From the NCBI GenBank assembly GCA_027068915.1, contig JAMOLT010000013.1, positions 1-64,000 of the forward strand: 64,000 bases of DNA, read 5' to 3'. This document shows, in pieces, positions 11,444-54,551 of this stretch. Under the pieces are notes generated by a model. It was not told the DNA's origin. It did not search any database and worked only from the letters and a program-made list of their open reading frames with translations. A program made the position numbers and the translations under genes. Each line of letters opens with the position of its first letter. Positions within the stretch are counted from its first letter, which is position 1. The stretch is from Sedimenticola sp. Its GTDB lineage: Bacteria > Pseudomonadota > Gammaproteobacteria > Chromatiales > Chromatiaceae.

Positions 11444-11565
11444 CTAGTATATGCGTCGGAATTAAAGGCTCTTTCAGAGCCCCCCAAAAGCGCCAGGATG
11501 AGGCGGAGTGTGCAGACAGTGTTTGCTCCCTTGGCAAACGCCCCAACACCATCCTGGCGCTTTCC
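11444..11565. mobile_element. MITE copy C: rearranged, one end only
   Basis: Begins at a CTAG (11444-11447) with a terminal repeat through 11477 that matches the ends of copies A and B (…GTCGGAATTAAAGGCTCTTT), then goes straight into the second internal palindrome. The first palindrome is absent and the loop of the second is inverted relative to A and B (GGTTGCTCCCTTGGC orientation reversed). The right terminal repeat is missing; the sequence changes at CTGGCGCTTTCC (11554-11565) into the duplicated gene end. Confidence 0.75.
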
Positions 11566-16578: not shown

Positions 16579-16849
16579 CTAGTGTACTGTGTCAGAATTC
16601 AAGGCCCTTTCAGTGAGTCACAATGCGGCCAGATGCAAGGCGTACTCGCACAGGAAGGGCCACCCCCTTTCAAGCGAGTACAACACCGCAGATGGCCGCA
16701 TTGTGGCTCACCCGAAGGGAGTCCCCCAAAAGCGCCAGGACGGTGTTGGGGTACTTGCCAAGGGAGCAACCATTGCCTGCGCACCCCGCCTTGTCCTGGC
16801 GCTTTTGGGGGACGCTGAAAGAGCCTTTAATTCCGACACAATACACTAG
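16579..16849. mobile_element. MITE copy A (complete, 271 bp, CTAG-bounded)
   Basis: Terminal inverted repeats of 35 bp lie at 16579-16613 and 16815-16849 and match at 30 of 35 positions. Both ends are CTAG. Inside are two palindromes: one with arms CACAATGCGGCC and GGCCGCATTGTG, one with 19-bp arms at 16724-16742 and 16791-16809 (CCCCCAAAAGCGCCAGGAC and its complement). There is no transposase. TA within CTAG is the usual target of IS630/mariner-type transposases, which are the likely movers (inference). Short open frames inside are not conserved as proteins. Confidence 0.85.
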
Positions 16850-16877
16850 TGTACTGCGTCGGAATTAAAGGCTCTTT
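16846..16877. repeat. Solo terminal repeat of the MITE adjoining copy A
   Basis: A further end sequence (CTAGTGTACTGCGTCGGAAT onward to CTCTTT) shares the CTAG with the right end of copy A and points outward. This suggests a second element once stood next to copy A and was lost. Confidence 0.75.
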
Positions 16878-30789: not shown

Positions 30790-30830
30790 TAACAGGTTGT
30801 TAAAAAACGGATTTTTTCAACATCCTGTTA
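30790..30830. terminator. Imperfect hairpin between clpS and clpA
   Basis: TAACAGGTTGTTAAAAAAC and TTTTTTCAACATCCTGTTA pair over about 16 of 18 positions and overlap the clpS stop codon. A copy of the right arm (TTTTTTCAACATCCTGTTA) is also found at 3534-3552. It may attenuate readthrough into clpA or be a dispersed palindromic element. Confidence 0.55.
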
Positions 30831-31148
30831 AGCTTCTTCCATGGTGCATAACAGGGGATGCTGGCTTTCCCTGGCATATTCATTAACCTGAGACACCTTG
30901 GTTTCCGCAATATCCCGGGTGAAGACCCCGCAGACCCCAACGCCCCGGGTATGCACATGCAGCATCACCTGGGTTGCCTTCTCCTCATTCATATGAAAAC
31001 AGGAGGTCAGTATTTCAACCACAAAATCCATCGGCGTATAATCGTCATTCAACAACAGCACCTTATACAAAGGCGGCTTCTTAAGCTTAGGACGACTTTC
31101 CTGGGTCGCAAGTTCCCCATTTTCGTTATCTTCGTATTCTTCACTCAT
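30828..31148 (-). CDS. clpS: ATP-dependent Clp protease adaptor ClpS
   Basis: 106 residues. The acidic N-terminal tail leads to the core [20 protein letters not shown], and the rest ([20 protein letters not shown]) is typical. It binds N-end-rule substrates and the ClpA N-domain. The start ATG lies only about nine bases from the end of MITE copy B, and no Shine-Dalgarno sequence is visible, so promoter and ribosome-binding site may come from the element. Confidence 0.96.
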
Positions 31149-31156
31149 AGTCAGCT

Positions 31157-31425
31157 TGTGTACTGTGTCGGAATAAAAGGCTTTTTCAGTGAGTCACAAT
31201 GCGGCCAGATGCAAGACGTACTCGTGCAGGAAAGGCAGCCCCCTTTCAAGCGAGTACAACACAGCAGACGGCCGCATTGTGGCTCAGCCGAAAGGAACCC
31301 CCCAAAAGCGCCAGGACGGTGTTGGGGTACTTGCCAAGGGAGCAACCATTGGCTGCACACCCCGCCTTGTCCTGGTGCTTTTTGGGGGCCCTGAAAAGGC
31401 CTTTTCTCCCGACGCAGTACATTAG
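31157..31425. mobile_element. MITE copy B between purL and clpS
   Basis: About 269 bp with the same organisation as copy A: ends GTGTACTGTGTCGGAATAAA and the complement of TGTACTGCGTCGGGAGAAAA, the GCGGCC/GGCCGC palindrome, and the CCCCCAAAAGCGCCAGGAC palindrome. The right end TTAG contains the TAA stop codon of purL read on the minus strand (31422-31424). No transposase is present. Confidence 0.85.
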
Positions 31426-34400
31426 TTTTCATTTACCCATACTCTGGCGTTTCTGAACAGGCGCATCCAGGGGCTGTCTTCACCCCAGCCATCGGGATGC
31501 CAGGAATTCTGCACCGTGCGGATCACCCGCTCCGGATGCGGCATCATGATGGTCACACGCCCATCCTCTGTTGTTAGACCGGTAACCCCCTCGGGAGATC
31601 CGTTGGGATTTGCCGGGTAGTTCATGGTTACATCACCATTGTTATCAATATAGCGCAGGCTCACTCCCTTTCCAGGCCGGGAATCACCACGGTACTCTGC
31701 ACGGCCCTCCCCGTGGGCCACCGCAATCGGCATGCGCGAGCCGTGCATTCCCTGAAACAGCAGCGAAGGACTGTCCAGCACTTCCACCATGGCCACCCGC
31801 GCCTCGAACTGCTCTGAACGGTTGCGTACGAAATGCGGCCAATGAGCTGCCCCAGAAATCAGCTCTTTGATATTGGAAAGCATCTGGCAGCCATTGCAAA
31901 CGCCAAGGCTGAAGGTGTTTTCCCGCTCGAAAAAGGCCTGAAACTGATCCCTTGCACGGGCATGAAAGAGTATGGATTTGGCCCAGCCCTCTCCCGCGCC
32001 CAGCACATCACCATAGCTGAATCCCCCGCAAGCCACCAAGCCCCTGAAATCATCCAGCGTTACGGAACCATTGAGGATATCGGACATATGAACATCCACG
32101 GCCTCGAACCCCGCCTTGTGGAAGGCGTAGGCCATTTCCTGCTGGCCGTTCACTCCCTGTTCCCTGAGAATGGCCATGCGCGGCCTGCTGATCTCGAGAA
32201 ATGGGGCGGCAATATCGTCTTCGGGATCAAAGCTCGGGTGGGCGCTCAAGCCAGGATCATTTGCTGCAATGCCCTGAAACTCTTCCCGGGCGCACTCGGG
32301 ATTATCTCGCAACAGCTGCATCTGCAAACTGGTTTCCGACCAGATTTGCTGCAAATCGCTGCGCTGGCGCTCCAGCAACACCCTGTTCCCCTGGAAAATG
32401 ACAATTTTTTCATCCTCTCTGGTAGTGCCCAGCACATGGCTGTGATGGCCCAGGCCAGCATCTTCCAGGCATTTGAGTACATCATCGCAGTCACTGTGAC
32501 GCACCTGCAAAACCAGTCCCAGCTCCTCGCTGAACAAGGCGGCTAACGCATCCGCATCCAGGGCATCGATGCCAATATCCAGTCCACAGCGACCGGCAAA
32601 AGCCATCTCCAGCAAGGTGACTATCAAACCACCATCAGAGCGGTCATGGCTGGCCAGAATCAGGCCATCCCGGTTTAGCTCCTGGAGGGCATCAAAGCAG
32701 CGCCTGAGCATTTCCGGATCATCCAGATCCGGGCCGACATGGCCAAGTTGGCCATATACCTGCCCAAGGGCGGATGCACCCAGGCGATTCAGGCCTTTTC
32801 CCAAATCGATGAGGATCAGATCCGTATCACCCTGATCCATGCGCAGGGCGGGGGTCAGCACATTGCGCACATCGGTCACCGGGGCGAAGGCTGTGATGAT
32901 CAGGGACAAAGGCGCAGCCATTTCCCTGGTTTCATCATTTTGCTGCCATACTGTTTTCATGGACATGGAATCCTTTCCTACAGGTATGGCGATACCCAGC
33001 TGGGGACATAGTTCCATACCCACCGCTTTGACCGTATCAAACAGCCGGGCATCTTCATCCTGATATCCGGCGGCAGCCATCCAGTTGGCGGAAAGCTTGA
33101 TCTTTTCCATGGATTCCACTGGCGCGGCCATGAGGTTGGTGATGGCCTCGCCAATCGCCATACGGCCGGAAGCCGGCGCATTCAACAGCGCCAGGGGCGT
33201 GCGCTCGCCAAGCGCCATGGCTTCTCCGGCATTGCCCTCATAATCTGCAATGGTGACCGCCACATCCGCCACCGGCACCTGCCAGAGTCCGACCATTTGA
33301 TCCCTCGCCACCATGCCGGTAATGCTGCGATCTCCGATGGTGATCAGGAAGCTTTTGCTGGCTACTGTGGGCAGGCGCAAGATCCGCTCCACGGCTTCTA
33401 TCACATCAACATTCTGCAATACCAGCTCCGGCCTGGCAAAAGGTTGGTGATGGGTTTCACGCACCATTTTGGGCGGTTTGCCAAACAGCAGCGGCATGGG
33501 CATGTCGATGGGATTGTTATCGAAGTAGGCATCTCCCAGAAGCAGGTGTTCTTCATCCACAGCCTCACCAACAATGGCGTAGGGGCAGCGCTCGCGCTCG
33601 CAGATTGCCTCGAACTCTTCCAGCTTGTCCACATCGATGGCCAGCACATAGCGCTCCTGGGATTCGTTGCTCCAGATCTCCATAGGAGACATGCCAGGAT
33701 CGCCGCAGGGCACGGTACGCAGTTCGAAGCGACCACCCAGGCCTGCATCATGCACAAGCTCGGGCAAGGCATTGGACAGACCACCAGCGCCTACATCATG
33801 AATAAACAGTATGGGGCTGGAGGCACCCCTGGCGCAGCAGTGATCGATCACTTCCTGGCAGCGTCTTTCCATTTCCGGGTTGGCACGCTGCACCGAAGCA
33901 AAATCCAGGTCTTCGGCCGAGTCGCCGGAAGCCATGGAAGATGCTGCGCCACCGCCAAGACCAATGAGCATGGCAGGCCCGCCAAGCACTATCAGAGGAG
34001 AGCCAGCGGGGAAAGTATCCTTGCGCACATGTTCATCACGAATGTTCCCCAGGCCGCCAGCCAGCATGATGGGTTTGTGATAGCCGCGCAGTTCTTCACC
34101 GTTCGGTCCGGGCACCTGCGTCTCATAGGTACGGAAATAACCGCACAGATTGGGGCGGCCAAATTCATTGTTGAAGGCAGCAGCTCCGATTGGCCCCTCA
34201 AGCATGATATCCAGGGCGGAAACGATGCGCTCCGGCTTGCCGAAATCCTTTTCCCAGGGTTGTTCAGCGCCAGGAATTCGCAGGTTGGACACAGAGAACC
34301 CGCACAAACCAGCCTTGGGTTTGGAGCCTTTTCCCGTAGCCCCCTCATCCCTGATCTCCCCTCCAGCGCCAGTAGCCGCCCCGGGGTCGGGTGAAATTGC

Positions 34401-35294
34401 CGTTGGATGATTGTGCGTCTCCACCTTCATCAGGATATGCACATCCTCGCAATGCTCTTCATACACTCCGGAACCCGGAGCAGGGAAGAAACGGTAGCCT
34501 TGGCTGCCGCGCATTACCGCCGCATTGTCCTTGTAGGCGGACAATACATCCTGTGGCGACTTCTCCGTGGTATTGCGAATCATCTGGAACAGGCTTTTAT
34601 CCTGGGACTTGCCATCGATAATCCAGTCAGCATTGAAAATCTTGTGTCGGCAATGCTCCGAATTCGCCTGGGCAAACATCATCAATTCCACATCCGTAGG
34701 ATTGCGCCCCAGCGCCTGGAAACTTTCCACCAGGTAATCGATTTCATCCCCGGACAACGCCAGCCCCAGGTCTGCATTGGCTTTCACCAATGCCGCCCGC
34801 CCGCCATTGAGGATATCTACAGAAACAAACGGGCGCGGCTCTGTATGCAAAAACAGCACTTGCGCATCATCCAGATCATAGAAAACGGATTCCGTCATGC
34901 GGTCATGAAGTGAATCCCCGGCTTTTCCCAGATCCGCATCTGCGAGATCACCCTCCAGGTAATATGCAACCCCTCGTTCGATACGCTCGACAGCCTGCAA
35001 GCCACATACACGGGCAATATCCGTTGCCTTGGATGACCAGGGTGAAATGGTGCCCGGCCGGGGTGTTACCAGCACCAGAGAGCCAGCCGGCTCATGGCTC
35101 GCCAGCGCCGGGCCGTAGCGCAATATCCGGTTCAGGACAGTCTGCTGGGATGCAGATAATTCTTCTGATAATTCAATTAGATGGGTGAATTCCGCATACA
35201 CAGACACGGGCTTCCCCAGACGTTCAGTCAATCGGGTATTGAGTTTTTCCAGACGAAAATCGGAAAACGCCGGTGCGCCGCGCAACTTGAGCAT
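31422..35294 (-). CDS. purL: Phosphoribosylformylglycinamidine synthase
   Basis: 1290 residues (E. coli 1295), the large single-chain form. It converts FGAR, glutamine and ATP to FGAM in purine synthesis. The FGAM-synthase domain has [10 protein letters not shown]-like [21 protein letters not shown]. The C-terminal glutamine amidotransferase has the nucleophile [10 protein letters not shown], and HPE near the end (MMPHPERV). The stop codon sits at the boundary of MITE copy B, and the last few residues (RVWVNEN) may derive from that junction. Confidence 0.97.
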
Positions 35295-39323: not shown

Positions 39324-42300
39324 CTACTGACAATAATCCACTGCAGGAGAAACAGACAGCCTGGCTCCGCCTTCTACCCGAAACACCGCACCAGCCTTGA
39401 CAAGCATCCGGGGCGCCTTCAAAACCAGGTAGTGTGGCGCCAACACCTCTACAGGGCTGCTCTCATCTGCAGCCTGAATTTCCTGCGCAGAGGACAAAAT
39501 GGTGCTTCCCGCACCGGCAAAATCACCACTGACCTGCAGTAAAGCCGGCTCATAGGTGCATGCACCACGCTTCAGGGGCAGGTTGTTGTTGATGATCCTG
39601 GCGGCATCCACCGCAATATTGAAGCTCTGATACCAGGTATTTGCGCTACAACTCTTGTCCAGCAGCTTCCCGCTGGCGTCGTCCCTGGAAGAGCCAAGGC
39701 TGGTCGGCAGATCCGTCACAGGCACGTCCAGCGCTCCAGCCGCAGGCGGGCAGGCATCGTCAAGCATATAGCCTGCAGGTGGCGTGTACGCCAATGTGCA
39801 GTTCGCCTGCAGGTTGATCTCGGTTACAGCAAACTGATAGAAACCTTCGCTGCCATCACGCCCGGAAACAACACTGGCGACACCATTGGAGCAGGTCATG
39901 GCCATCTTTCCTCCATGCACCAAAGAACCGGTTTCCGCATGGTACAGATAGCCCATGGGATTGTAATCATTGTCCCCATTGACGCCATTGGGGTCTGCAG
40001 GATCAATACCATTGAAGCGGGCATCAACACTGACCGTCGGCTGGATGATTACATTGAACACCTGGTCGTCATCATAAATTGCATCATCAATACCCCTGAC
40101 CATGACCTCTCTCGGCTGATCCCAGTCTTCCGGCGTAAAGATCAATGTAGTGGAAGCAACGGCATTGTCCGTAACGTCATCTACCAACATTGCCTCCCCC
40201 GCATCATCTACGCGCATTTCCATGTAGACATTTTCATTGGGTTGAGCATTCAGGGAGATACTGAACCTGTCCTCCGTACCACTTTCATCCGTGGTCAGGC
40301 CGGCATCCGGCTCTTGCACAAGCACCACAACCGGGTCATTGTCCACATTGGTCACCTGTATCTGGGGAAGGGAAATCGCGCCATAGCTAGGATGATCTAC
40401 GGTAGCACGCAGGCTCAGGTTGATATTGAACTCCTGATTGCCATCAACCTCGTCGTCATCCAGACCGGTGGCGACCACCTGTTGCGGTTGGTTCCAGTTT
40501 GCCGGAGTGAATGTCAAGGCCTGTAAATTCAGTTGGGCTTCTTCCGTATTGCTGACAACCAGAGAAAGCTGCACATCGCCCTCCGGCGGGGTATCCAGCA
40601 CAACGGTGAAACAGGCGCTGCCGCCATCTTCCGTTACCGTCAATTCCGTTGCGGACACTGTCACGCCCGCTTCGTCATCATCCAGGTTGCTGGCCTGCAC
40701 ATCTGCAGCATCCAGCCCGTCATAATTGGCATCGTCACTGACGGCAGGCAGCAGTTGCACCACATAGGCCTGATCCCCATCCGCCATCACATCATCCTGC
40801 CCGGTGACGGTGACCATTTGCGGCACAAACCAGTTCGTGCCGGTGAACAACAGGCTGGATACATTTACGTCTCCCTCACCAGGGTCACTGCTTTGCAGCG
40901 GAACAGTAACATTGGAAGTTGGTTGCGCAAGCAACACCACATCAAAACTGGCTTCTCCACCGGACTCGTTGGTGCGCAGGCTGGCTTCCGGCGTCGTGAG
41001 GATCCCGGCGGCATCATCATCTGACAGATTGATGGTGAATGCAGCGGAACTCGCGCCCTGGTAAGCCGAGCCTACACCAGACCCGGCAGGCACTTGCGCA
41101 CTCAGCCCCACTGCACGCAACCCGTCGATAGCAGGATTGTCCTGCGCCGTGAAAGTAACGATACGGGGTTGGTTCCAGTTCTCCGCTGTAAACACCAGCA
41201 TCTCTGGAGAGACGGTTCCCTGCAAACCATCGGTGAGGCTGAATTCTACGGCGACATCAACAAGAGGCATGGTATTCAACTGCACGGAAAACAGCGCCTT
41301 GCCACCATTTTCGGAAACATCCAGAGAGCCTTGCGCCGCCAGCAGTATTTCCGCTCCGTCTGCATCGTAGTTTGTCGCGGTAACAATTTCCTCGATCCCG
41401 TCATAGGGCGTTGCGCTTGCGGCGGGCCCGGCAATAACCCAGAACACCGCATCACCATCCTTTACCCCATCATTGATGCCGGTGACGGTCACTGTCTGGG
41501 GCTGATGCCAATTGTCCGGAGTGAAAGACAAGGACATGGGAAAGACGACTGCTTCGGTCGATACAGGCGAAGTAAAGCGGATGGGAACCGTTACGGGTGA
41601 AGCAGGCTTTTTGCCCAGCGCAACAGTGAACGTATCACTGCCGCCCATTTCGGTGACCTCTAGGCCGCTATTGGGTGAGAGCACCAGGGTCGGTACGTCA
41701 TCATCCTGGTTGAGCGCCTGAATCTGCTCCGGTATCCCGGCGTACAGCGGGTCTTCGCTGGAAGTAATGAGGCTCACGGTATAGTTTTGATCTCCATCCA
41801 CGGTTTCCTCGTCCACACCTGCAAGGGTTACCTGTTGCTCGTCGCCCCAGTCCTCCGTGGTAAACAGCAATTCCCCCTTGTCCACTTCCCCTTCACCACT
41901 CATGCTGCTGGCGATGGCGACCTTGACCGTAGCTTCCGGCTTGGAGCGCAAACGCAGGGAGAAGGATGCGTTTGTTCCATCTTCTCCGGTTTGCAACGGT
42001 TCAGTCGCGGTAATCAGCAGCCCGCTTAGTTCATCGTCAATATTGACCACGGACAAATCATCGATATCGGCATCCGTAAGCAAGAAATAGGAATCCGAAC
42101 CAGCAGATGAGATTCCGGTTTGTATGGCGAATGTCTGATCGCCATCTTCAAGCGCATCATCGACGCCGGTCAATGTCACCGTCTGTGGCAGATCCCAGGT
42201 GGTTTCGTTAAATACCAATGAAGAAGGACTTAGCGTTCCTTCATTCGTATTGCTGCTTTGCAGGCTTACCGTCACCACACCACCGTCCTCTGGCGCACTG

Positions 42301-44984
42301 TTGAGCACCACCCGGAAACTGGCGTCGAAGGATCCTTCATCAGCTTCCGTAGTCCGCAGATCCACGGTGGGCGTGATGGTTACGCCTGCCTGGTCATCAT
42401 CGGCATTGCGGGCATTGATGTCCCTGCCCATGCCATCGTAAAAGGGGTCGCTACTGGCAGCGGCGACCTGGATCTGCCCTTCCTGGGTACCATCCTGCAC
42501 ATCATCATTCACACCGGTAACAGTAACCACCTGAAGAGCATTCCAGTTCGTGGCGTCAAAATTCAGGGTAACGAGATTGACGGAAAACTCCGTAGCATCA
42601 GTGGATGAAAAACTCAGTGTGACAGGATGTACCGGCTGGGAACTCAACCTGATATTCATGTCGTCATTCGCACCAGGCTGCTCTCCCGTAAGCACCGCCC
42701 CCGGCGAAACGAAAATCCCGGCGCGGTCATTGTCTCTGATATGAATGCTGGTCTTCTCGGCGCTTCCTCCCTGAAAAACCGCATCGGCACTCTGCATCTC
42801 CATACTGATGCCGGAAGTACTACCCCGCTCGGCAACGGCATCATCCACGGCAATAACAGCAAGCTGTTGGGGGGTATTCCAGTTGCTGCTGTCAAAGGTA
42901 AACTCTGCAACCGCCCCTGCTCCTGCGCCCAGATCAATCTGCGCATTGTCCGGCGTCAGGCGCAAGGTAACCGGCGCGGAAGGCTGGGCAGAAAGCCGGT
43001 AGCCCAGCGTGCCAGGCAAGGGCGGGGTCGCCTCACGAAGCGTCAGAACCTGCTCGTCCACCAGGGGCATCACCACTGTGAGCTGGAATACATCTTCGCC
43101 CTGCCCGCCGTAGCCATCGTTTGCCCGAACGATAATTTCCCCGGAAAAGTTTTCACTCACCGTACCCTGCAAACGGCCATTGACGATCTGGAGAAAAGGC
43201 GGACGTCCGTACATGCTGTAACTCAGCGCCTGCCCGTCCGGATCATCAAAATGTGCATCAAGGTCGATATCAATCACTTGATTCCATTGCGGCCTTTGAT
43301 CTGCTATTGGCACGGTCACTACGGGCGCCGAGTTTGCCCTGACCTCGAAGTTCTGCAGCGGAAAAGCCTGGAACCCCTTCAGCTCCCACTCGCCATGAAA
43401 CTCATGAGAGAGGAAGTCATTGCCCACCCAGACATTCTCGTCCACTACCGGGCCGTAGCCCAGGTCGAAACCAGACCACTTGAATCTTCCGGTACAGATG
43501 GATCCCACCCAGAAATCAACACATCTTCTTCCAAACACGGTAAACCGGGGCGTTTCCAGGCCGACATCCAATAACAGCAGATTGGTATAGGTGAGCTTTC
43601 TGTAGCGCTCAGTATTGGTAAAGCGGTTTGGCAATGTCACTTCAGGAGAGATGCCAAGCGGCAGTATGTCTTCCGTCGTCTTGACTCGCAACGATTGCCC
43701 GGGGATAAGCCGCACCGCTGCGCTCTTGCCGGAATCCACCGCCCTTCCGTTCTCGAAGACCTCCCACTCAACGATGGAGGAAAGCGTGAATTTCATTGAA
43801 AAATCGGGATCAAAGGTAAAGTCTTGATGTTTGATCACCTCGATACTGGTGGTGATACCAAGAAGATTGAATATCAGCTCAACCTTCTTGAGCGCCTTTT
43901 TCTTGTTGACACCGAAATACTTTTTTGCCAGTTTCTGCAGCTTGCCCAATCCCAGCAACAGCCACTGATCCACGAAAACATCAAGCTGGGCAAAGCTATG
44001 CGTATCACTGCCGGTGAGCACCAGCTGGCTATCCAGCTGTTCATTGGTAATGTGGATTTCCGGTATGGTGAACCGGCCAGTAAACCCCGCCAGATCCTCG
44101 AAATTCACCACCAGCGTGGAAAGGAGGGGATCAGACAAATCTATCGTGGTTCCCGGAGGACCATCCACAAGTACGATTCGGCGCTTGCCGCTTACTTCCA
44201 AGTCCCAAAATTTGTCACTCTTGCAGTTTCTGTACAAGCAAGCTTTTGCTCTTGCATCCGTATCCAGGGATCCGGATGCGTAGATCCCCAGTTCGGCACT
44301 TGGCGCATGGCTGACAATATTGACTCCGTTACGGGGTGCCAGAGAGGTTTTTATCTCAACGGTGTCTCCCGGGTTGATCTGGTTTTGCTCTGGATAGGAA
44401 ATCGCAATCGACACCGGGTATTCCAGATCTACACTGCCTCCGGCATAACTGCCAAAAACAGACAGCCCAAAATCCCCCGCCACGCTGGTGTCAAAATCCG
44501 CGCCAAATTTATAACAGCGGTTGCTGAACCAGTCCTTCAGTTTGTTGATGACTCTGCTGGAGGATATGCCATGGAGATCTATCCCGCTGAGCATGCTGCT
44601 CAGCTTGCTAAACAGGCAGAATTCGATGGTTTCGTCGATATTCAAATCCGCTGCAAAGCCGGTATCAGAGCGCTTGAGCACAGTCATGTGCATGAACTCA
44701 TCCTTGTCTTCCCCTGTGGGAGCATCGCCCGCATAGCGCATGGATTGGCTCTCGGTACGGAAATCAAGGTCATACTGTCTTGACACCATGACACCATCTG
44801 TCACGACAGCTTCAGGAAGACATGTCACGCCATCCGCATCACAGGCGGCGTAAGCAAGGGAAGAAATGGAGGCAGAGGTTACAAACAGGAAAGCAGGCAG
44901 ACAAAGGCGTAGAAACAGTCGCCAGCCCGGAGGCAAAGGAAGCGGTTTATTGACTATTCTGGGTATTTCCACTACAGCAACCAT
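39324..44984 (-). CDS. Giant secreted protein with cadherin-like domain and nine Calx-beta-like repeats
   Basis: 1886 residues. An N-terminal signal (LRLCLPAFLFVTSASISSLAYA) follows a short basic region, and CAGGTG lies before the ATG. Residues to about 600 form a unique region. Then comes a cadherin/dystroglycan-like domain (IDIDLDAHFDDPDGQALSYS, IIVRANDGYGG). Nine repeats of roughly 105 residues follow, each with NWNxPQxVxVTGxDDxxxDGDQ and acidic DD turns, probably Ca2+-binding Calx-beta-like modules. The C-terminus is a cysteine-containing unique domain ending SVSPAVDYCQ, with a beta-rich LVLKAPRMLVKAGAVFRVEG stretch. It has no LPXTG, IPTL or PEP-CTERM tail, so its anchoring is unclear. 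Likely an adhesin or matrix protein. Confidence 0.85.
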   Translation of the reverse strand: MVAVVEIPRIVNKPLPLPPGWRLFLRLCLPAFLFVTSASISSLAYAACDADGVTCLPEAVVTDGVMVSRQYDLDFRTESQSMRYAGDAPTGEDKDEFMHMTVLKRSDTGFAADLNIDETIEFCLFSKLSSMLSGIDLHGISSSRVINKLKDWFSNRCYKFGADFDTSVAGDFGLSVFGSYAGGSVDLEYPVSIAISYPEQNQINPGDTVEIKTSLAPRNGVNIVSHAPSAELGIYASGSLDTDARAKACLYRNCKSDKFWDLEVSGKRRIVLVDGPPGTTIDLSDPLLSTLVVNFEDLAGFTGRFTIPEIHITNEQLDSQLVLTGSDTHSFAQLDVFVDQWLLLGLGKLQKLAKKYFGVNKKKALKKVELIFNLLGITTSIEVIKHQDFTFDPDFSMKFTLSSIVEWEVFENGRAVDSGKSAAVRLIPGQSLRVKTTEDILPLGISPEVTLPNRFTNTERYRKLTYTNLLLLDVGLETPRFTVFGRRCVDFWVGSICTGRFKWSGFDLGYGPVVDENVWVGNDFLSHEFHGEWELKGFQAFPLQNFEVRANSAPVVTVPIADQRPQWNQVIDIDLDAHFDDPDGQALSYSMYGRPPFLQIVNGRLQGTVSENFSGEIIVRANDGYGGQGEDVFQLTVVMPLVDEQVLTLREATPPLPGTLGYRLSAQPSAPVTLRLTPDNAQIDLGAGAGAVAEFTFDSSNWNTPQQLAVIAVDDAVAERGSTSGISMEMQSADAVFQGGSAEKTSIHIRDNDRAGIFVSPGAVLTGEQPGANDDMNIRLSSQPVHPVTLSFSSTDATEFSVNLVTLNFDATNWNALQVVTVTGVNDDVQDGTQEGQIQVAAASSDPFYDGMGRDINARNADDDQAGVTITPTVDLRTTEADEGSFDASFRVVLNSAPEDGGVVTVSLQSSNTNEGTLSPSSLVFNETTWDLPQTVTLTGVDDALEDGDQTFAIQTGISSAGSDSYFLLTDADIDDLSVVNIDDELSGLLITATEPLQTGEDGTNASFSLRLRSKPEATVKVAIASSMSGEGEVDKGELLFTTEDWGDEQQVTLAGVDEETVDGDQNYTVSLITSSEDPLYAGIPEQIQALNQDDDVPTLVLSPNSGLEVTEMGGSDTFTVALGKKPASPVTVPIRFTSPVSTEAVVFPMSLSFTPDNWHQPQTVTVTGINDGVKDGDAVFWVIAGPAASATPYDGIEEIVTATNYDADGAEILLAAQGSLDVSENGGKALFSVQLNTMPLVDVAVEFSLTDGLQGTVSPEMLVFTAENWNQPRIVTFTAQDNPAIDGLRAVGLSAQVPAGSGVGSAYQGASSAAFTINLSDDDAAGILTTPEASLRTNESGGEASFDVVLLAQPTSNVTVPLQSSDPGEGDVNVSSLLFTGTNWFVPQMVTVTGQDDVMADGDQAYVVQLLPAVSDDANYDGLDAADVQASNLDDDEAGVTVSATELTVTEDGGSACFTVVLDTPPEGDVQLSLVVSNTEEAQLNLQALTFTPANWNQPQQVVATGLDDDEVDGNQEFNINLSLRATVDHPSYGAISLPQIQVTNVDNDPVVVLVQEPDAGLTTDESGTEDRFSISLNAQPNENVYMEMRVDDAGEAMLVDDVTDNAVASTTLIFTPEDWDQPREVMVRGIDDAIYDDDQVFNVIIQPTVSVDARFNGIDPADPNGVNGDNDYNPMGYLYHAETGSLVHGGKMAMTCSNGVASVVSGRDGSEGFYQFAVTEINLQANCTLAYTPPAGYMLDDACPPAAGALDVPVTDLPTSLGSSRDDASGKLLDKSCSANTWYQSFNIAVDAARIINNNLPLKRGACTYEPALLQVSGDFAGAGSTILSSAQEIQAADESSPVEVLAPHYLVLKAPRMLVKAGAVFRVEGGARLSVSPAVDYCQ

Positions 44985-45653: not shown

Positions 45654-48600
45654 TCAATACCTCTTCAGCAAGCTCCCCCGCCGCGCTGACATCAACCCCA
45701 GAGCCAGCAACAACATCCCAAGCAGCAAGATACCCATTCTGGAAAGCGTGGGCACGGCTACCGGCTCGGAGTTGACAGCCGTTTGCGCCACACTGGCGTT
45801 GTTTCCGGGGTTCGGATCCGGCGTACTTGAGGATACGCTGGCGGTATTCACCAGGTCACCCGATATCCCCTGATCCACGGTTACTTCTATGGTATAGGTC
45901 TTGCTGGAGCCGACGGGGATGTCACCCAGATTGCAGTCAGGAACCCCCATGGGATCATTGTCACAACCCGTGGTAGCCACCGGACTCATTCCTGCGGGCA
46001 AGCTGTCGTTTACCACGACATCGCGGGCATCACTGGGACCATGATTGGACACCTCAAGGGTGTAGACGATGGTGCCGCCGCCCTGTATATACTGCACATC
46101 GCTGACCTTGGTAATGCGCAGATCAGCCGCCGCACCTACAGTCGTCGGTTCGGTTGCGGTGTTGTTGCCACCATCCGGATCCGGCGTAGTGGCGCTGACA
46201 ACCGCTGTGTTGGTCAAGGTGCCGCTGACGCCAGCGTCCACCTCCACAGTTACCGAATAGCTTACGGATGCACCGACAGCCAGATCACCCAGGTTGCAGC
46301 TGGGCACCCCATTGGGATCATTGGCACAGCCACTGGTGGAAACCAGGGTCATACCGGCAGGCAGCGTATCTTCCACTGTGACGCCAACGGCGTCACTTGG
46401 GCCGTCATTGCTCACCTGGATGGTATAGACAACCTGATCACCGGCATTGACCGGATCCACATCATCAGACTTGCTGATGCGCAAATCAGCCGCCGCGCCC
46501 ACGGTGGTGGGTTCGGTGGCGGTGTTGTTGCCTGTATTGGGATCCGGAACCGAGGAAACCACAGTCGCAGAATTGGTGAGCGTACCAGCCACACCCGGGT
46601 CTACGGTTACCGCTACGGTATAACTCTTGCTGGTTCCCGCAGCCATACTGCCAAGATTGCAGCTGGGCACTCCCGCAGGATCATTGTCGCAACCCGTACT
46701 TGACACAAAGGTCAAACCCGCTGGCAGGGTATCCGTTACCACCACATTCGTGGCGTTACTGGGGCCATCGTTGAACACCTGCAGGGTATAGATAACCGTG
46801 TCACCAATGCGAACCGGATCAACATCATCCACCTTGGTAATGCGCAGATCGGCGGCAGCACCAACGGTTGTCGGTTCTGTCGCTGTGTTGTTGCCGGTAT
46901 TTGGATCTGGCGTGGTGGCACTAACGACCGCTGTATTGGTCAGGGTGCCACTGACTCCCGCACCAACCTGGACAGTCACGGCATAGCTGGCGGATGCGCC
47001 GACGGCAATCGTACCCAGATCACAATTGGGGACACCGCCAGGGTCATTACTGCAGCCGTTGGTGGAAATCAGGGTTACCCCCGCCGGCAGGGTATCGGTT
47101 ACCGCCACCCCGGTTGCATCGCTGGGACCGTCATTGGTGACTACGATGGTATAAACCACCTGATCACCGGCATTGACTGGATCTGCGCTGTCGGTTTTGG
47201 CAATGCGCAGATCGGCAGCCACATTTACGGCTGTCGGTTCTGTGGCCGTGTTGTTGCCCGCATCGGGATCCGGCGTGGTGGCGCTGACGACCGCTGTATT
47301 GGTGAGCGTGCCGCTGGCACCGGAACCCACCTGCACGGTTACCGTATAGCTGACAGTTGCGCCGACCGCCAGGTCACCCAGACTGCAGTCGGGTACGCCA
47401 GCCGGATCATTGGCGCAACCGCTGGTGGAGACCAGGGTCACGTCGGCAGGCAAGGTATCCGCCACGCTCACGCCGGTTGCATTACTGGGGCCGGCATTGC
47501 TCACTTCAATGGTGTATACGATCTGGTCACCAACGGATACGGGATCTACATTGTCAACCTTGGTAACGCGCAAATCCGCAACCTGACCAATATCCGTCGA
47601 TTCATCGGTAACATTGTTGTTTGGATCCGGATCGGGCACCGATGCGCTTACACTCGCCGTATTGGTCAGGGTGCCCGTAGCGCCCTGATCAACCTGCACC
47701 GTGATGGTATAGGAGACCGTACCATTCACCGCCAGATCACCCAGCGAACAAATGGCGACGCCACTGGGATCCTCCGCACAACCACTGGTGGAGACCAGAG
47801 TCAGGCCTGCCGGAAGGGTATCCGTTACCACCACATCGGGCGCCATGCTGGGACCGGCATTCTGCACTTCTACCGTGTAGGTGAAGGTATCACCCGCAGC
47901 AACGGGATCAGCACTGTCCACCTTGGTAATGCTCAGATCCGCATTTTCGATGGGCACCACCGTGGGATCCAGGGGATCCGGGGTGGATGGATCGTTCGAG
48001 GGAACCTGCGGCAACTCATTGGAATCCGCCAGCGCCTGGTTCACCAGCTCGACAACGCCGGGTGCCAGGGGATCCGGAATGACCACATCGTATTCAATCG
48101 TCACCTGCCCCTGCACCGGGACAACAGGGAAGCTGACCTGTACAGCCGTATCCCCGGCGGTATTGCCTAGGGCAATAACGCCACCGGGAGCAACTACGGA
48201 GCCCGCCTGGAAGTCACCATTGCTGTCCGGCACATCATTGACCACCAGGTTGGTGGCATCGGCAAGGCCGGTGTTGGTGATGGTAACGACATAATGAATG
48301 CTGTCTCCCGGCGTGGTGCTGCCGGAGCCATCCGCATCCACGGTGCGTGTGGCCGTTTTGTCCACCACCAGCTGGGGCAGGCTCAGGGTATCGCTGCCAT
48401 CCACGTCCGGCATTTCACGCTCATCCGGATCCACGCCAGGCAAGGTGGTGGTAACGGTATTGGTGGCCAGATTGACCACCGTCGCCGGCGCTCCATCCGC
48501 CAGGGGAACGCTGAATACAAAGGTGACAGTTTCACCCGGCTCTACGGAATTCGCCGGCGCCGAGGAAGCCGCATCGGCAGCCATCAGCACTGTGGTTTCC

Positions 48601-51600
48601 GTGGCGCCTGGGCCGGCAGCCGTGGTCAGGGTAAAGCCCGCCGGAACGGTTACCGGACTGATGTTGGCCGTATCCCAGTTGCCACTGTCGAGAATATCTT
48701 CGATTTCGATATCAAAGGCTGGCGCGGTGCCATTGTTGGTGATGTTCACCGTCATGGTCACAATACCCGCATTCAGGCTCATGGTCTTGGCGACCGCCAT
48801 GGCCGGCTCCACAACATCGATGTCTGCGGTATCACTCAGGGTACTGCCCGCGCCATAGGTCATGGTTGCGGTATTGGTGAGCTGATCGCCATCGACATTC
48901 TCTGGCACATCGATCACCCTGCCCGTCACTGTAACCGTAATCAGATCATTTGCATCATCGGCATTGTCCGGCGTATTGGTTACGGTGCCAAAATCAATGC
49001 TCACGGTGTAGGGGTCGGGCGATGTGATCACCGGAGCGCCAGTGCTGACATTGCCGCCCAGACTGATCACCGGGTTGCCCACGATCTCGATAAAGCCCTG
49101 ACCCGGGGCCCCGGCCGGCATGAGATCGGAAAGGACCACATTTTCGGTTGTTCCTTCCACAAATTTCAGGGTGATGTCGTAGGTAACCAGCTCACCAATG
49201 GTCAGATCCTGAAGCAGGCCATCATGGAAAGCCTGACCGGTATCCGCCAGGCTGGTGCTGGAAACCACCTTCACCAGTGTCGGCGCCAGTACGGTAACCT
49301 GGGCGCTGGTGGAGCCGGTATTGCGGCGTGTTTCTCCCGCGGTATACACCGGTGTGGAATCATAGCGCCAGTCGGCCACGTTGCTGAGGGTTTCGCCAGG
49401 CATGGCCAGCAGATCCACTTCCACCTGATAGGTAATGGTGCAACTGCCGCTGGCAAGCGCCAGGGTGGGTATATCGAATACCACCACCGGCGGCATGTTC
49501 GCCGCTGCGGAAGAATCCACGCTGGCGCCACAACTGCCTCCCACCGTTGCATCGCCGATCCAGTTCATCAGGGCAAAGCTGCCATCATTGGCCAGGGTAT
49601 CACTGATCTGGATATTGAAGGCATCCGCAGTGGAAGCCGCCTGATGCTGCACGGTGATCTCGAAGGTGACCTGATCACCTGCGTCCACCAGCAAGGGAGC
49701 GCCGCCCAGGGCCTGCTTGCTGATATTGAGCAAGGGCTCCACCAGATCCACCGCGGCGGTGCCGGAGACGCCGCCCGGATTGTCTGCATGGGTCAGGGTC
49801 GCCGTGTTCACCAGGTCATCATCAGCGCCCCCCTGGTTGAGGGCGTTGTCCACGACCAGCGCCACAACTTCAAAGACAATCTCATCATCCACACCACCGG
49901 CACCGCCGGGGGCGTTGGTGATGTCTCCAAGGTTCCACTGGGCCTGGTCACGGAAACTATCGCCGTTATCGTCGCAACCCGGCAGGCAGTCGTCACCGGC
50001 GGCACCCACAGTCGCTCCCGAACCAATGGCAAGTTGGGAACCGATGGAAACAATGCGGGAACTGACCACCTCCAGCACCACATCGGTAGTGGGGAGCTGA
50101 TCGATCATTACCGCGTTGCGCGTCACCCCTTCCGGAATGGTGGCGACAAAGCGGTAGGTCACGGTTTCACCGATGGTCAGATCCGGCTCGGGACCATTGA
50201 TACCTGTACCTGTTGACGCTTCCGAAGTAGCGAAAACGCTTTTCAGCAAGCCGGCTTCCGTCACCGTAATCTGGTGATTGTCACTGACGCTGCCGCTGCG
50301 CTCGTTAGGATCGGCATCCGCTGGCAGGGAGTCCCAAGCAAGCTGGGCCTGGTTGGTGAGCACCGAACCGGGCGCAACGTCTGTGCGCAAGGTGGCCTGG
50401 AACTGAATGCTGCAAATATCGCCTACGGGCAGGTTATCGAAACTGGCATTGAGACCAACACCATACGGGTCGGCATCATTCAGAACCGGTGCTACGGCGC
50501 AGCTGGCCGCAGGCACGAAAATCAGGCTGGCGGGCACATAGTCAAACTGGGTATTGTCCACCACATCGCTCATCACCAAGTCAAAGGCTTCTGCGGATGA
50601 TCCCGGCTGATGCTGGATAGCGATGGTGAAGATGATCAGATCTCCCGCATCTCCACTGGTTTCGTTTCCGCTCTTGTCCACCTGCAGCTGAGGCTCCACC
50701 ACATCCACATCCACGCTGGCGGTAGCCGTCAGGCTGGGACCGAACTGCACCTGGGCGTTGTTGGTCAACTGGTTGCCATCGACGTTCCCCGCCACATCAA
50801 CCAGTCTGGCGGTAAGCTCGATGATGATCCGGTCATCATCATCCGTAACGCCATCGGTGGCGCTGTTGGTTACCTGGCCAAAGTCCCAGACTATGGTGTC
50901 ATCGATTCCGTCTCCGAGGTTGGCGTCGGAAATGACGCCGGCGGGCGCATTGGCGGTTGTCAGATTGGCTCCCGTAACAATGGAGTCGATGCTAACCACT
51001 TCCATCACGCCGGCGGCGCTGGCCGGCAGGGAATCGGTGATCACGATCTGTGAACTCACGCCTTCCGGCACCGTCACTACCAGCCGGTAGGTGGCGGTCT
51101 CACCGATGGTGAGATCTTCAACGCCCGGATTGTGTTCCCCTGCCCCGGTGCTGATCTCGGAGGTACTGATCAGGCTCTTGCCCATGACCGCCCCGGAGAT
51201 GGGCAGGTTGACCGTACTCTCGGCATGATAGTCATTGCCGCTGCCACAGGCATTGGGATCTGTGGCGGCGGTGCGCTCACAGGAATCGGCGCTGTAACTG
51301 GAAAGCGGGCCGGAAACAGTTCCCGGCTGGCCTGTCCAGTCGACACCAGCGGTATTGGGCAGGCTCGAACCGGCCTGCACGGTGGTATTCAGGGTAACCT
51401 GGTACTGAATACGGCACTCTTCACCCACGGGGAACTGCACCCAGGTCGCCGAAAGCGTAGGCGCAGCGGCATCGTCCAGGGTCACGGCCGACGGGCAACC
51501 GCTACTGATGGCAAGACTTCCGCCAACATAGGTGGTTTCGGCATGCAGGGTGTCCGACAGCACCAGGTCATAGGCATCGCTGACATTGGCACCGGCGGGG

Positions 51601-54551
51601 TTGTTAACAAACCACTCATAGGTGACTGTATCTCCCGCATCGTAACTGCCACCACCGATGATGCTTTTTACCAGCTGGAGGTTGGGCTCTTCAACGGCGA
51701 TATCCGTCGCCTGGGCCGTCAAATCCTGATTGCCACCATCGCGTATGTAGCGGAACCTGGCGCTGTTGTTCTTGGCGTCCCCGCGGTTACTGTCGGTATT
51801 GTTGAGCACCACGACATCATAGGCAATGGTGATGGTCTCGGGTGTTCCATCGACAGTATCACTGTTGGTGATGGCGCCGAAATCCAAATCCAGCGTTCTT
51901 CCACCATTGGTTACGCTGGCATTTGCCAGCACCCCGGCAAAACCACCTGCAACGCTGGTGGCCAGTCCGGCAGAAGCATTGATGCTGGCGTTCGTCCCCA
52001 GATCCACAAAGGCCAACCCGGGATCCAGCACATCATGCAGGGCAGCGCCATTGCTGACGCCTTCCGGCAGGGTGATAGTCAGGGTATAAGGGAACACATC
52101 CCCGATGGTGGCGCTGGCCGCCACCGTCGTCTTGGTAAAGGTTGGCTCGGCGACAGTTACGCTGGCCGTATCAGTGATGGCCGGAAACGCGGCGGCTCCG
52201 GGCTGGGAGGCCCAGGTCGCCGATCCGGTATTGGTGATCACCCTGCCCGGCTCCACACTGCCGGCAAGCGTACACTGCACCTGGATCAGGGCGGTATCCG
52301 CCCCATAGGGCGCGCCGATACTGCCATCATTGGCGGCCAGTGGATCGGTCAGCTGCAATGCACCGGCAAAGGCGCTGCCTACAGCAAGGGAGGAAGCCAG
52401 GCCATTGCCCGCTCCATCCGTCACGGATAGCAGAACACACCCCGTCAGAAGACCGGCTGGCTGGCCAAGGTCATCTGTCACGCTGATGTCATATGCCAGG
52501 GCACCACCGATATTTTCCACGGTAAACTGATAGACCACCTGATCACCGGCATCCGCGCCACTGAGATTCCCGTCTACCGGCAAGGTGGCGGGAGGCGGGG
52601 AAATGCTACCGTTGCTACTGATCGCAATCCCTTTGGTGAACGCCAGCTCCGGCGCCCGCACATTCAGCTCGACCAGGGTAAGATCCACCAAAGGCGCCAG
52701 CGGCGTGTTATTGGTGCTGGCCTGAAACAGGTTACTCAGATGCAGACCATCCGCAAAGGGATCATCCTGCACCACCATGTCGATATCCACCGCGACAATC
52801 TGGGGAGAATTGGTATTGACATCCGCCAGAGTCAAAGACAGGCTGTTGGCGGCAGAATCGATACTGATACCCGGGGTGATATTCATGGTATCTGTGGCCG
52901 CCTGGCGAATATCATTGCCATAGGTCAGATCCAGGGTATTCACATCGAACACCGGCAGCGGGAAGAAATCCTCGAACACGATATCGGAAGTATCACCCGA
53001 TGGAATGCTCATGCTCAGGCGGAAAGTCACTATGTCTCCAGGCTGATACTGGGCCTGGGGATTGAGGATTTCCTTGGTGATGGCCGGGGCATTCACTACG
53101 GCGGTAGCGGCGCTTTGATTGGTGCAGCCGACAGCGCCGGCAACCAGGCCATAGGTAATTTCCACAGCATTGGTGAGTGGATCACGCGCCTTCACCGTAT
53201 CGCCATTGTTGTAGAGATCGAGAACGAGCGCCGAGTAGGTAAGGGTCAAACTGGAGCCGGAAGCGATATTGCCACCAATTGCAGTGGTCACATCATAGAC
53301 GACGGAAGTGGTTCCATTCGCATTGTTGGTTACTACCGGCGCGATGGCTACCGGCGCACCGTTGTAGCTCAAAGATCCGTGCGCAAAGCTGTCCAGACCA
53401 TCGGGCAACAGATCACCAAGCAGCAAGGCGTTCACCGTACCGAAATCGCTGACCTGGATGTTCAGCGTATAGGTCAATGTATCCCCAGGCACCATCGCGG
53501 CGGGAGACACCGACTTCTGTACAGTTACATGCTCAGCGGAGATCACGGTGTTGTCCGTTTGCTGCGCAATACTGAGATAGCTGCCGGGATTGGCAGGTAA
53601 ATCTTCCCGCTGTGCATCAAAAGTGGCTGCGTTGATCACATCGGATTGGCTACAGACAGACTCGTCCAGTATGTCGGTAATGTAGGCCTGATAAGTGACC
53701 ACTACATCATTGCTTGCGGTGGTGCCTGTGGCCTCGGTGCAGGAAACAGAAATATTGGGTAACGCTACAGTGGGAACACAGCCGCTGCCGCCGCTGATAT
53801 TGATGGAGCCCACCACATATTGCAGAGCCGCCGGCAATGCATCGTTGAACTGCAGGTTGCGAATCGTACCGCCGTTGGCGATATCCGCATTCAGCGTATA
53901 AGTATAGGGCCAGGAAGCACCGGGAGGGCGCTCGGTTTCCGGTGTATCGTCAACTTTGGAAAAAATCACGATCACGGGGGTTACTGCTGCGGTGATTTCG
54001 GTGCCGGCAATGGGGCCATTGTCACCCGTGGCGGTGTCACCGAACTCATACATGGGCGTCATATGCACATCCAGAGGCACACCAATGGCCGCTGTCTGAT
54101 CGATAGTGGCGCAAATATTGATGTTAATTGCCGGCGCGCCGGCTACCAGTGAGCCAACTGGCGGCTGCAGGGTGATAAAGGTATATCCTGCCGGCCCGGT
54201 AACCGTTTCATCGCTGATGGGATCGATCAGATCCGGCGGGAAAGTTCCCACCATCTGGGCGGTAACCCCGGCACCCAGGAAATCCGCAGAATCAAAGGAA
54301 ATCCCGGATGGCAGCTTGAGGCGCAAATACGGCCCAAAGCCCGGCGTGCCAGCATTACTCAAGGGAGCATCAAAACAAAACTGTTCCCCGGCGAAGCTCT
54401 CTGCCGGCAGATTGTTCAGATCCGTAACCGGGGTGGCTGCGGCAGCAATCCCCGGCATCATCAGCGCCAGCAACAATAGTGCCTTGAGCAGCATGCGGTG
54501 TGCCATCAGGCTCCGCTGTGAAATACTGGAACTGCCATATGAATCCTTCAT
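45654..54551 (-). CDS. 2965-residue DUF11-repeat surface protein with IPTL-CTERM-like tail
   Basis: Signal peptide within residues 1-40 (MLLKALLLLALMMPGIAAAA). The body is built almost wholly of DUF11/TIGR01451-type beta-sandwich repeats. The N-terminal two thirds alternate two kinds of module: one beginning like DLTIGETVTYR and one like VEPxLxVxK...DAGD. The last third has six near-identical repeats of about 121 residues (ADLRITKVDxxDPV...YTLPAG...NNTATEP). The C-terminus VPTLSRMGILLLGMLLLALG followed by ARR is an IPTL-CTERM-like sorting signal, recognised by an exosortase-related system not present in the window. It should be a long surface filament or adhesin. An antisense frame of up to 640 codons is a by-product of the repeats. 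Confidence 0.9.
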   Translation of the reverse strand: MKDSYGSSSISQRSLMAHRMLLKALLLLALMMPGIAAAATPVTDLNNLPAESFAGEQFCFDAPLSNAGTPGFGPYLRLKLPSGISFDSADFLGAGVTAQMVGTFPPDLIDPISDETVTGPAGYTFITLQPPVGSLVAGAPAININICATIDQTAAIGVPLDVHMTPMYEFGDTATGDNGPIAGTEITAAVTPVIVIFSKVDDTPETERPPGASWPYTYTLNADIANGGTIRNLQFNDALPAALQYVVGSINISGGSGCVPTVALPNISVSCTEATGTTASNDVVVTYQAYITDILDESVCSQSDVINAATFDAQREDLPANPGSYLSIAQQTDNTVISAEHVTVQKSVSPAAMVPGDTLTYTLNIQVSDFGTVNALLLGDLLPDGLDSFAHGSLSYNGAPVAIAPVVTNNANGTTSVVYDVTTAIGGNIASGSSLTLTYSALVLDLYNNGDTVKARDPLTNAVEITYGLVAGAVGCTNQSAATAVVNAPAITKEILNPQAQYQPGDIVTFRLSMSIPSGDTSDIVFEDFFPLPVFDVNTLDLTYGNDIRQAATDTMNITPGISIDSAANSLSLTLADVNTNSPQIVAVDIDMVVQDDPFADGLHLSNLFQASTNNTPLAPLVDLTLVELNVRAPELAFTKGIAISSNGSISPPPATLPVDGNLSGADAGDQVVYQFTVENIGGALAYDISVTDDLGQPAGLLTGCVLLSVTDGAGNGLASSLAVGSAFAGALQLTDPLAANDGSIGAPYGADTALIQVQCTLAGSVEPGRVITNTGSATWASQPGAAAFPAITDTASVTVAEPTFTKTTVAASATIGDVFPYTLTITLPEGVSNGAALHDVLDPGLAFVDLGTNASINASAGLATSVAGGFAGVLANASVTNGGRTLDLDFGAITNSDTVDGTPETITIAYDVVVLNNTDSNRGDAKNNSARFRYIRDGGNQDLTAQATDIAVEEPNLQLVKSIIGGGSYDAGDTVTYEWFVNNPAGANVSDAYDLVLSDTLHAETTYVGGSLAISSGCPSAVTLDDAAAPTLSATWVQFPVGEECRIQYQVTLNTTVQAGSSLPNTAGVDWTGQPGTVSGPLSSYSADSCERTAATDPNACGSGNDYHAESTVNLPISGAVMGKSLISTSEISTGAGEHNPGVEDLTIGETATYRLVVTVPEGVSSQIVITDSLPASAAGVMEVVSIDSIVTGANLTTANAPAGVISDANLGDGIDDTIVWDFGQVTNSATDGVTDDDDRIIIELTARLVDVAGNVDGNQLTNNAQVQFGPSLTATASVDVDVVEPQLQVDKSGNETSGDAGDLIIFTIAIQHQPGSSAEAFDLVMSDVVDNTQFDYVPASLIFVPAASCAVAPVLNDADPYGVGLNASFDNLPVGDICSIQFQATLRTDVAPGSVLTNQAQLAWDSLPADADPNERSGSVSDNHQITVTEAGLLKSVFATSEASTGTGINGPEPDLTIGETVTYRFVATIPEGVTRNAVMIDQLPTTDVVLEVVSSRIVSIGSQLAIGSGATVGAAGDDCLPGCDDNGDSFRDQAQWNLGDITNAPGGAGGVDDEIVFEVVALVVDNALNQGGADDDLVNTATLTHADNPGGVSGTAAVDLVEPLLNISKQALGGAPLLVDAGDQVTFEITVQHQAASTADAFNIQISDTLANDGSFALMNWIGDATVGGSCGASVDSSAAANMPPVVVFDIPTLALASGSCTITYQVEVDLLAMPGETLSNVADWRYDSTPVYTAGETRRNTGSTSAQVTVLAPTLVKVVSSTSLADTGQAFHDGLLQDLTIGELVTYDITLKFVEGTTENVVLSDLMPAGAPGQGFIEIVGNPVISLGGNVSTGAPVITSPDPYTVSIDFGTVTNTPDNADDANDLITVTVTGRVIDVPENVDGDQLTNTATMTYGAGSTLSDTADIDVVEPAMAVAKTMSLNAGIVTMTVNITNNGTAPAFDIEIEDILDSGNWDTANISPVTVPAGFTLTTAAGPGATETTVLMAADAASSAPANSVEPGETVTFVFSVPLADGAPATVVNLATNTVTTTLPGVDPDEREMPDVDGSDTLSLPQLVVDKTATRTVDADGSGSTTPGDSIHYVVTITNTGLADATNLVVNDVPDSNGDFQAGSVVAPGGVIALGNTAGDTAVQVSFPVVPVQGQVTIEYDVVIPDPLAPGVVELVNQALADSNELPQVPSNDPSTPDPLDPTVVPIENADLSITKVDSADPVAAGDTFTYTVEVQNAGPSMAPDVVVTDTLPAGLTLVSTSGCAEDPSGVAICSLGDLAVNGTVSYTITVQVDQGATGTLTNTASVSASVPDPDPNNNVTDESTDIGQVADLRVTKVDNVDPVSVGDQIVYTIEVSNAGPSNATGVSVADTLPADVTLVSTSGCANDPAGVPDCSLGDLAVGATVSYTVTVQVGSGASGTLTNTAVVSATTPDPDAGNNTATEPTAVNVAADLRIAKTDSADPVNAGDQVVYTIVVTNDGPSDATGVAVTDTLPAGVTLISTNGCSNDPGGVPNCDLGTIAVGASASYAVTVQVGAGVSGTLTNTAVVSATTPDPNTGNNTATEPTTVGAAADLRITKVDDVDPVRIGDTVIYTLQVFNDGPSNATNVVVTDTLPAGLTFVSSTGCDNDPAGVPSCNLGSMAAGTSKSYTVAVTVDPGVAGTLTNSATVVSSVPDPNTGNNTATEPTTVGAAADLRISKSDDVDPVNAGDQVVYTIQVSNDGPSDAVGVTVEDTLPAGMTLVSTSGCANDPNGVPSCNLGDLAVGASVSYSVTVEVDAGVSGTLTNTAVVSATTPDPDGGNNTATEPTTVGAAADLRITKVSDVQYIQGGGTIVYTLEVSNHGPSDARDVVVNDSLPAGMSPVATTGCDNDPMGVPDCNLGDIPVGSSKTYTIEVTVDQGISGDLVNTASVSSSTPDPNPGNNASVAQTAVNSEPVAVPTLSRMGILLLGMLLLALGLMSARRGSLLKRY
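45780..47943 (-). repeat. Six tandem DUF11 repeats of about 363 bp
   Basis: Six consecutive in-frame units each start with AD-LRI-K and contain GPSxAxxVxVxDxLPAG, TSGCxNDPxGVPxCxLG and TLTNTAxVSxxxPDPxxGNN. They are strongly similar at DNA level, so copy number may vary by recombination. Confidence 0.9.

Follow-up and report, generated by a model that had tools for sequence, protein, structure and literature searches.

A MITE family with IS630-type ends and a covarying two-hairpin core in a Sedimenticola genome

Bacterial MITEs are commonly taken for insertion sequences that have shrunk and whose interior has no meaning. The Correia elements are known to use TA targets. PMC10969869 describes how RNase III cleaves Correia transcripts within the terminal repeats. 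For IS630, a preference for CTAG as the insertion site is given in the passage of PMC2170065 that cites Tenzen and Ohtsubo 1991. We analyzed a stretch of 64,000 nucleotides (the window, positions 1–64000) from a Sedimenticola sp. draft genome (G000, referred to as the host, a marine sulfur bacterium of the Gammaproteobacteria; 2.83 Mb in 61 contigs), for which Sedimenticola MAGs are the nearest among public relatives. The window contains copies of a repeat that is a small non-coding mobile DNA and forms a MITE family. MITEs with IS630-type ends are an established class, to which this family belongs. Its interior consists of two homologous hairpins placed head to head and joined by a CCC-NNCG-GGG mini-hairpin, and the same arrangement occurs in other genera, where both the terminal repeats and the stems differ.

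Two complete copies of 271 bp, A and B, were identified in the window along with two partial traces (Table 1). An earlier note, made from the letters of the window, had described a CTAG-bounded repeat of roughly 270 bp, and this observation was confirmed at 16579–16849. For copy B the end given there (31425) is correct, and the start moves from 31157 to 31155. The 35-bp terminal inverted repeats reported for both copies are real and are imperfect, with 31/35 positions matching in copy A and 29/35 in copy B. The GCGGCC palindrome and the palindrome with 19-bp arms are the two hairpins, and what had been taken for a third, rearranged copy is one: it retains a single terminal repeat and, of the two hairpins, just the second, which is inverted. 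The solo end beside copy A is also genuine and has its CTAG in common with that copy. Copy A has a DUF1631 gene on one side and gnd on the other. The target TA of copy B falls inside the purL stop codon, and the opposite end lies 6 bp upstream of the clpS ORF start, so that the element fills the entire clpS upstream region. Two minus-strand ORFs in the window are very long, at 45654–54551 (2965 codons) and 39324–44984 (1886 codons).

Table 1. Positions of the MITE copies, their parts, and neighboring genes in the window
Feature	Position	Strand	Description
Copy A, whole element	16579–16849		271 bp
Copy A, left terminal inverted repeat	16579–16613	+	CTAGTGTACTGTG...TTTCAG; 31/35 against the right repeat; 15/18 against an IS630 end
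Copy A, hairpin 1	16612–16712	+	CAAGGCG...CAACA core; model R1, 96.9 bits, E 2.5e-20
Copy A, linker mini-hairpin	16711–16719	.	CCCGAAGGG; CC(C)-NNCG-GG(G) type
Copy A, hairpin 2	16717–16817	-	Model R1, 92.1 bits; homologous to and head to head with hairpin 1
Copy A, right terminal inverted repeat	16815–16849	-	Terminal CTAG
Solo end	16846–16877	+	Abuts copy A, with the CTAG in common
Copy B, complete element	31155–31425	+	Between purL and clpS
Copy B, hairpin 2	31293–31393
Partial copy	11444–11565	-	Single terminal repeat and hairpin 2 alone
purL, neighbor of copy B	31422–35294	-
clpS, neighbor of copy B	30828–31148	-

A genome-wide search with copy A placed its relatives, once all matches had been merged, at 51 places on 20 contigs. 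The terminal repeat was found at 63 ends (≤3 mismatches), and a reversed control pattern was found at none. These counts bear out the suggestion that the traces in the window belong to a numerous family. The copies have features of a MITE: a length of 271 bp, terminal inverted repeats matching at 31/35 positions, dispersal over 51 places, and no transposase. Shorter versions with one hairpin or none also occur in the host, and the smallest are palindromes of ~53 bp made of two ends only. A search of the host for an autonomous copy returned no DDE_3 transposase and no paired ends at the spacing of an insertion sequence. Two further repeats were observed in the host. One is a second palindromic family (~TTCAATGACTATAAGTCATTGAAAATGGAGGAAAGACAAAAT...TTTTGTCTTTCC) that often adjoins MITEs (in the flanks of L013, L020, L027, L032, and L037), and the other (~TTTGGCTGCAAATCACTGGATGACGATTAACTCAGCCTATCCTGATCGTCAAATAGCCCT) abuts several MITE copies (L016, L024, L029, and L066).

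Filled sites in the host read CTAG...CTAG at nearly all insertions. CTAG is depleted in the window, with 18 occurrences against 52.5 expected from trinucleotides, and element ends account for 3 of the 18. Joined flanks of 16 host insertions were used to search the genus, and this located empty orthologous sites in congeners, with flanks up to 97% identical. The site of copy B is empty in one of them (G006; flanks 97% identical). Presence at orthologous positions in relatives, which the earlier note had set against its own proposal, was thus not what the comparison returned: orthologous sites are empty, and of the 14 congeners searched only G006 has the terminal repeat at all (three ends). The empty sites read TTAA, CTAA, CTAA, CCAG, CCAG, and CTCG, not CTAG, and for this reason a TA duplication in the host family has no clean reconstruction. 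Either CTAG was eroded in the relatives or it was brought by the element. At the site of one host copy in G006 (L185, contig C159), a 12-bp relic, CTAGTGCACTGG, resembles two joined end tips; it has the look of a footprint left by excision, or of an internal deletion taken to the extreme.

A sister family in a complete genome (G155) gives a clearer view of the target. It has 22 paired ends, all spaced at 260–261 bp, and the ends are essentially identical. Four of its copies are nested in a repeat that is also known in uninterrupted form; removal of the element leaves exactly one TA in each case, which demonstrates TA duplication for the superfamily. The duplication is proven for this related family only; the host family has empty sites.

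The IS630 transposase (DDE_3) was searched for in the 61 contigs of the host draft with no match, and IS630 elements from other genomes of the class were therefore used for comparison of the ends. The end of copy A matches an IS630 end from genome G294 (L256) at 15/18 positions, a value that no sequence reached among 5,417 TA-anchored controls drawn from the same loci. When all MITE ends were compared with IS630 ends, the mean best match was 10.9, against a null of 8.8 ± 0.3. The transposases behind this comparison were confirmed as IS630 with NCBIfam. The end match, the verified proteins, and the published CTAG preference make IS630 the best supported mover, and we infer from these sequence comparisons that an IS630-type enzyme mobilized the copies in the host genome. 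The earlier proposal of an IS630/mariner-type mover holds for end similarity and for the TA/CTAG boundaries and fails for the transposase, since no matching insertion sequence was found in the host draft. Across 274 genomes DDE_3 is also unassociated with the hairpin (24/91 genomes with the hairpin and 43/183 without, P = 0.65). This missing association is expected if MITEs outlive their enzyme, yet it is also a warning.

Candidates for an autonomous form were rejected. In G155, all 22 end pairs are 260–261 bp apart and none is longer. An IS630 on contig C1 of that genome (L195 and L196) has five DDE_3 copies that are identical; its terminal repeats of 21 bp are perfect (TTATTGAGCCTTGCATAAATA) and unlike the ends of the 22 MITEs. 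At two other loci (L198 and L205), IS630 remnants beside hairpins had the appearance of autonomous forms, but these remnants are unrelated to the MITEs, which adjoin them or are inserted within them. As we propose it, the family would be a non-autonomous MITE with IS630-type ends that are cut in trans by a transposase of the IS630/Tc1-mariner group. Insertion would take place at TA with CTAG preferred, and the TA would be duplicated. The host would now lack such an enzyme, leaving the copies probably stranded, or the enzyme may lie in an assembly gap.

Copy A is very stable when folded. As RNA it reaches -177.5 kcal/mol, compared with -97.6 kcal/mol for shuffled sequences (z = -17, 200 shuffles), and as DNA it reaches z = -15 against shuffles. 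A structure of 34 base pairs was derived from 26 aligned hairpins, and double compensatory changes occur in 31 of the 34 pairs. The covariation score for these hairpins was 0.791; shuffling the columns lowered it to 0.234, and sliding the partners gave no more than 0.155. In a second set of 70 hairpins the score was 0.955 compared with 0.213, a value that leans toward the model because the alignment was fitted to it. Unpaired inner columns are more conserved than columns of the outer stem (0.92 and 0.28 bits, P = 6e-6), and the conserved inner motifs are CAAGGCG facing GCAACGC and AATGG facing CCCTT. Hairpin pairs were head to head in 30/30 loci, and a linker of the CC(C)-NNCG-GG(G) type was present at all 28 paired junctions inspected. 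This head-to-head symmetry at the level of modules means that either strand takes the same fold, and the fold is very stable on both strands. The earlier note had thought that the hairpins could matter as structures. That idea became the main result, with covariation that extends across Pseudomonadota and is not specific to IS630 ends. An attC-like or group II intron-like reading of the loop motifs was dropped, as no matching feature was found.

The main rival to a functional core is an ordinary MITE with passively inherited palindromes, whose arms would stay complementary through template-switch repair. Self-correction of palindromes is known, and template-directed correction could produce some of the stem covariation without selection. 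Many host copies that lack one or both hairpins keep both ends, and each end type spreads with stem sequences of its own, as this rival would have it. It leaves unexplained that the inner loops are better conserved than the stems and that no paired locus inspected departs from the head-to-head order or lacks the linker hairpin, and it does not lead one to expect the same core between unrelated ends. We regard this explanation as unlikely. The interior would instead be a structured core of ancient origin, two hairpins with a CCC-NNCG-GGG linker between them, and not the relic of a transposase gene, maintained by selection on the fold and the inner loops. The combined explanation, in which an IS630-type non-autonomous MITE carries an ancient core selected for its fold and loops, is in our judgment probably correct.

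A covariance model of the hairpin (R1), whose E values are rough, was used to screen 274 gammaproteobacterial genomes, and 91 of them had the hairpin at E ≤ 1e-3. At E ≤ 1e-5 it was present in 74 of the 299 genomes screened from Pseudomonadota, among them many carriers in one family outside the Gammaproteobacteria. About 14 candidates were scored per genome, and hairpin copy numbers are therefore lower bounds. Some carriers have ends unlike those of IS630, such as GGAACCTCCGAACAAG, TAGGGCCTGTTAACACTG, and AAGAACGTGTTTACGATC. Searches of plasmids with copy A, and of plasmids and phages with eight end types, gave no match. Core hits in plasmids were single and limited to Azotobacter and Comamonas. 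In plasmid pAcX50f of Azotobacter chroococcum, R1 detects a hairpin (79.3 bits) in an element of 271 bp that has the ends CTAGGGTCTGTTGACGTTTTG. An IS5-family transposase gene of Aeromonas caviae is flanked by ends that match these at 19/20 and 17/20 positions; the IS5-type ends were seen on carriers of the core other than the copies in the window.

IS5 and IS630 transposases belong to different families, so the core derives from neither insertion sequence, and its occurrence between both types of end makes it more than the leftover of one. From these comparisons the core appears to be a structural module that MITEs reuse although their ends are unrelated, and it lies between IS5-family ends and others as well as between IS630-type ones. 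Conservation of the fold between unrelated ends suggests that the fold itself may be useful. We infer a role that depends on structure and not on orientation, exerted as folded single-stranded DNA or RNA. A putative host factor would bind the core in either of these forms and in either insertion orientation, to the benefit of the MITE. The broader proposal, that the core is an independent module defined by its structure, repeatedly taken up between unrelated transposon ends in Pseudomonadota, and beneficial to MITEs through a conserved partner that binds the fold, is tentative, and we place it slightly short of an even chance.

In a rival reading, the hairpins would be substrates of a RAYT-type Y1 (HUH) transposase, as in REP/BIME, with the terminal repeats secondary. 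Y1_Tnp was found in 77/91 genomes with the hairpin and 97/183 others (odds ratio 4.9, P = 1.5e-7), an association computed without correction for genome size or phylogeny, and in 30/33 genomes with many copies. Adjacency does not follow the genome-level association, as the hairpin was near only 3 of 20 Y1 loci, and TA duplications and long terminal repeats are traits of DDE elements. RAYT was rejected as the partner, and we consider this reading highly improbable.

The fold might otherwise act after transcription, as a mobile RNA gene, a bidirectional terminator, or a processing element that would protect or end neighboring transcripts. Its stability on either strand would suit such a role, as would the positions of copy B between purL and clpS and of copy A between the DUF1631 gene and gnd, and Correia elements offer a precedent in the RNase III cleavage of their transcripts (PMC10969869). 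Against it, copy A has no U-run at the 3' end. A search of the window against Rfam 15 returned no match at the gathering score, and the terminal palindrome gave only miRNA-like chance hits below it. This possibility seems doubtful to us, and a structure-dependent role of the core as DNA or RNA is the reading we prefer.

The elements described here reverse the usual expectation for MITEs, in that the ends vary and the interior stays, with a fold kept by covariation in about one-third of the sampled gammaproteobacterial genomes. The fold is common to MITEs that depend on unrelated transposases. Whether the success of a MITE depends on what its structure does in the cell can now be tested. The core is also an RNA/DNA structural family absent from Rfam, with which many repeats can be annotated across a large number of species.

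Literature searches with sequence strings returned nothing relevant. A covarying two-hairpin core spread over a phylum in MITEs with unrelated ends was absent from Rfam 15 and from the open literature searched, a body that excludes subscription literature and ISfinder. Among known systems, the IS630 family (IS630 of Shigella sonnei, ISY100) shares the TA target, the CTAG preference, and similar terminal repeats. It differs in that IS630 elements encode a transposase, the host has no IS630, and R1 found the core inside the insertion sequence at 0/16 IS630 loci searched. QMITE1 and QMITE2 of Coxiella burnetii (PMC5896051) are likewise MITEs of a gammaproteobacterium; their terminal repeats are long and they fold very stably. 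QMITE2, compared by description, has direct repeats of 7–9 bp and not TA (PMC5896051). REP/BIME with RAYT resemble the present elements in their head-to-head hairpins, many copies, and co-occurrence with Y1 genes at the genome level. They differ in their short tags, GTAG or CGTC (PMC3733652), and in lacking long terminal repeats; the present hairpins are not as a rule adjacent to Y1 genes. Correia/NEMIS elements of Neisseria are also small, numerous, intergenic MITEs; they differ, by description, in that the account used for the comparison mentions no two-hairpin core with a linker. The IS5-family MITE of A. chroococcum pAcX50f has the same length of 271 bp and a hairpin core found by R1, and differs in its ends, TAGGGTCTGTTGACG, which come from an IS5-family element.
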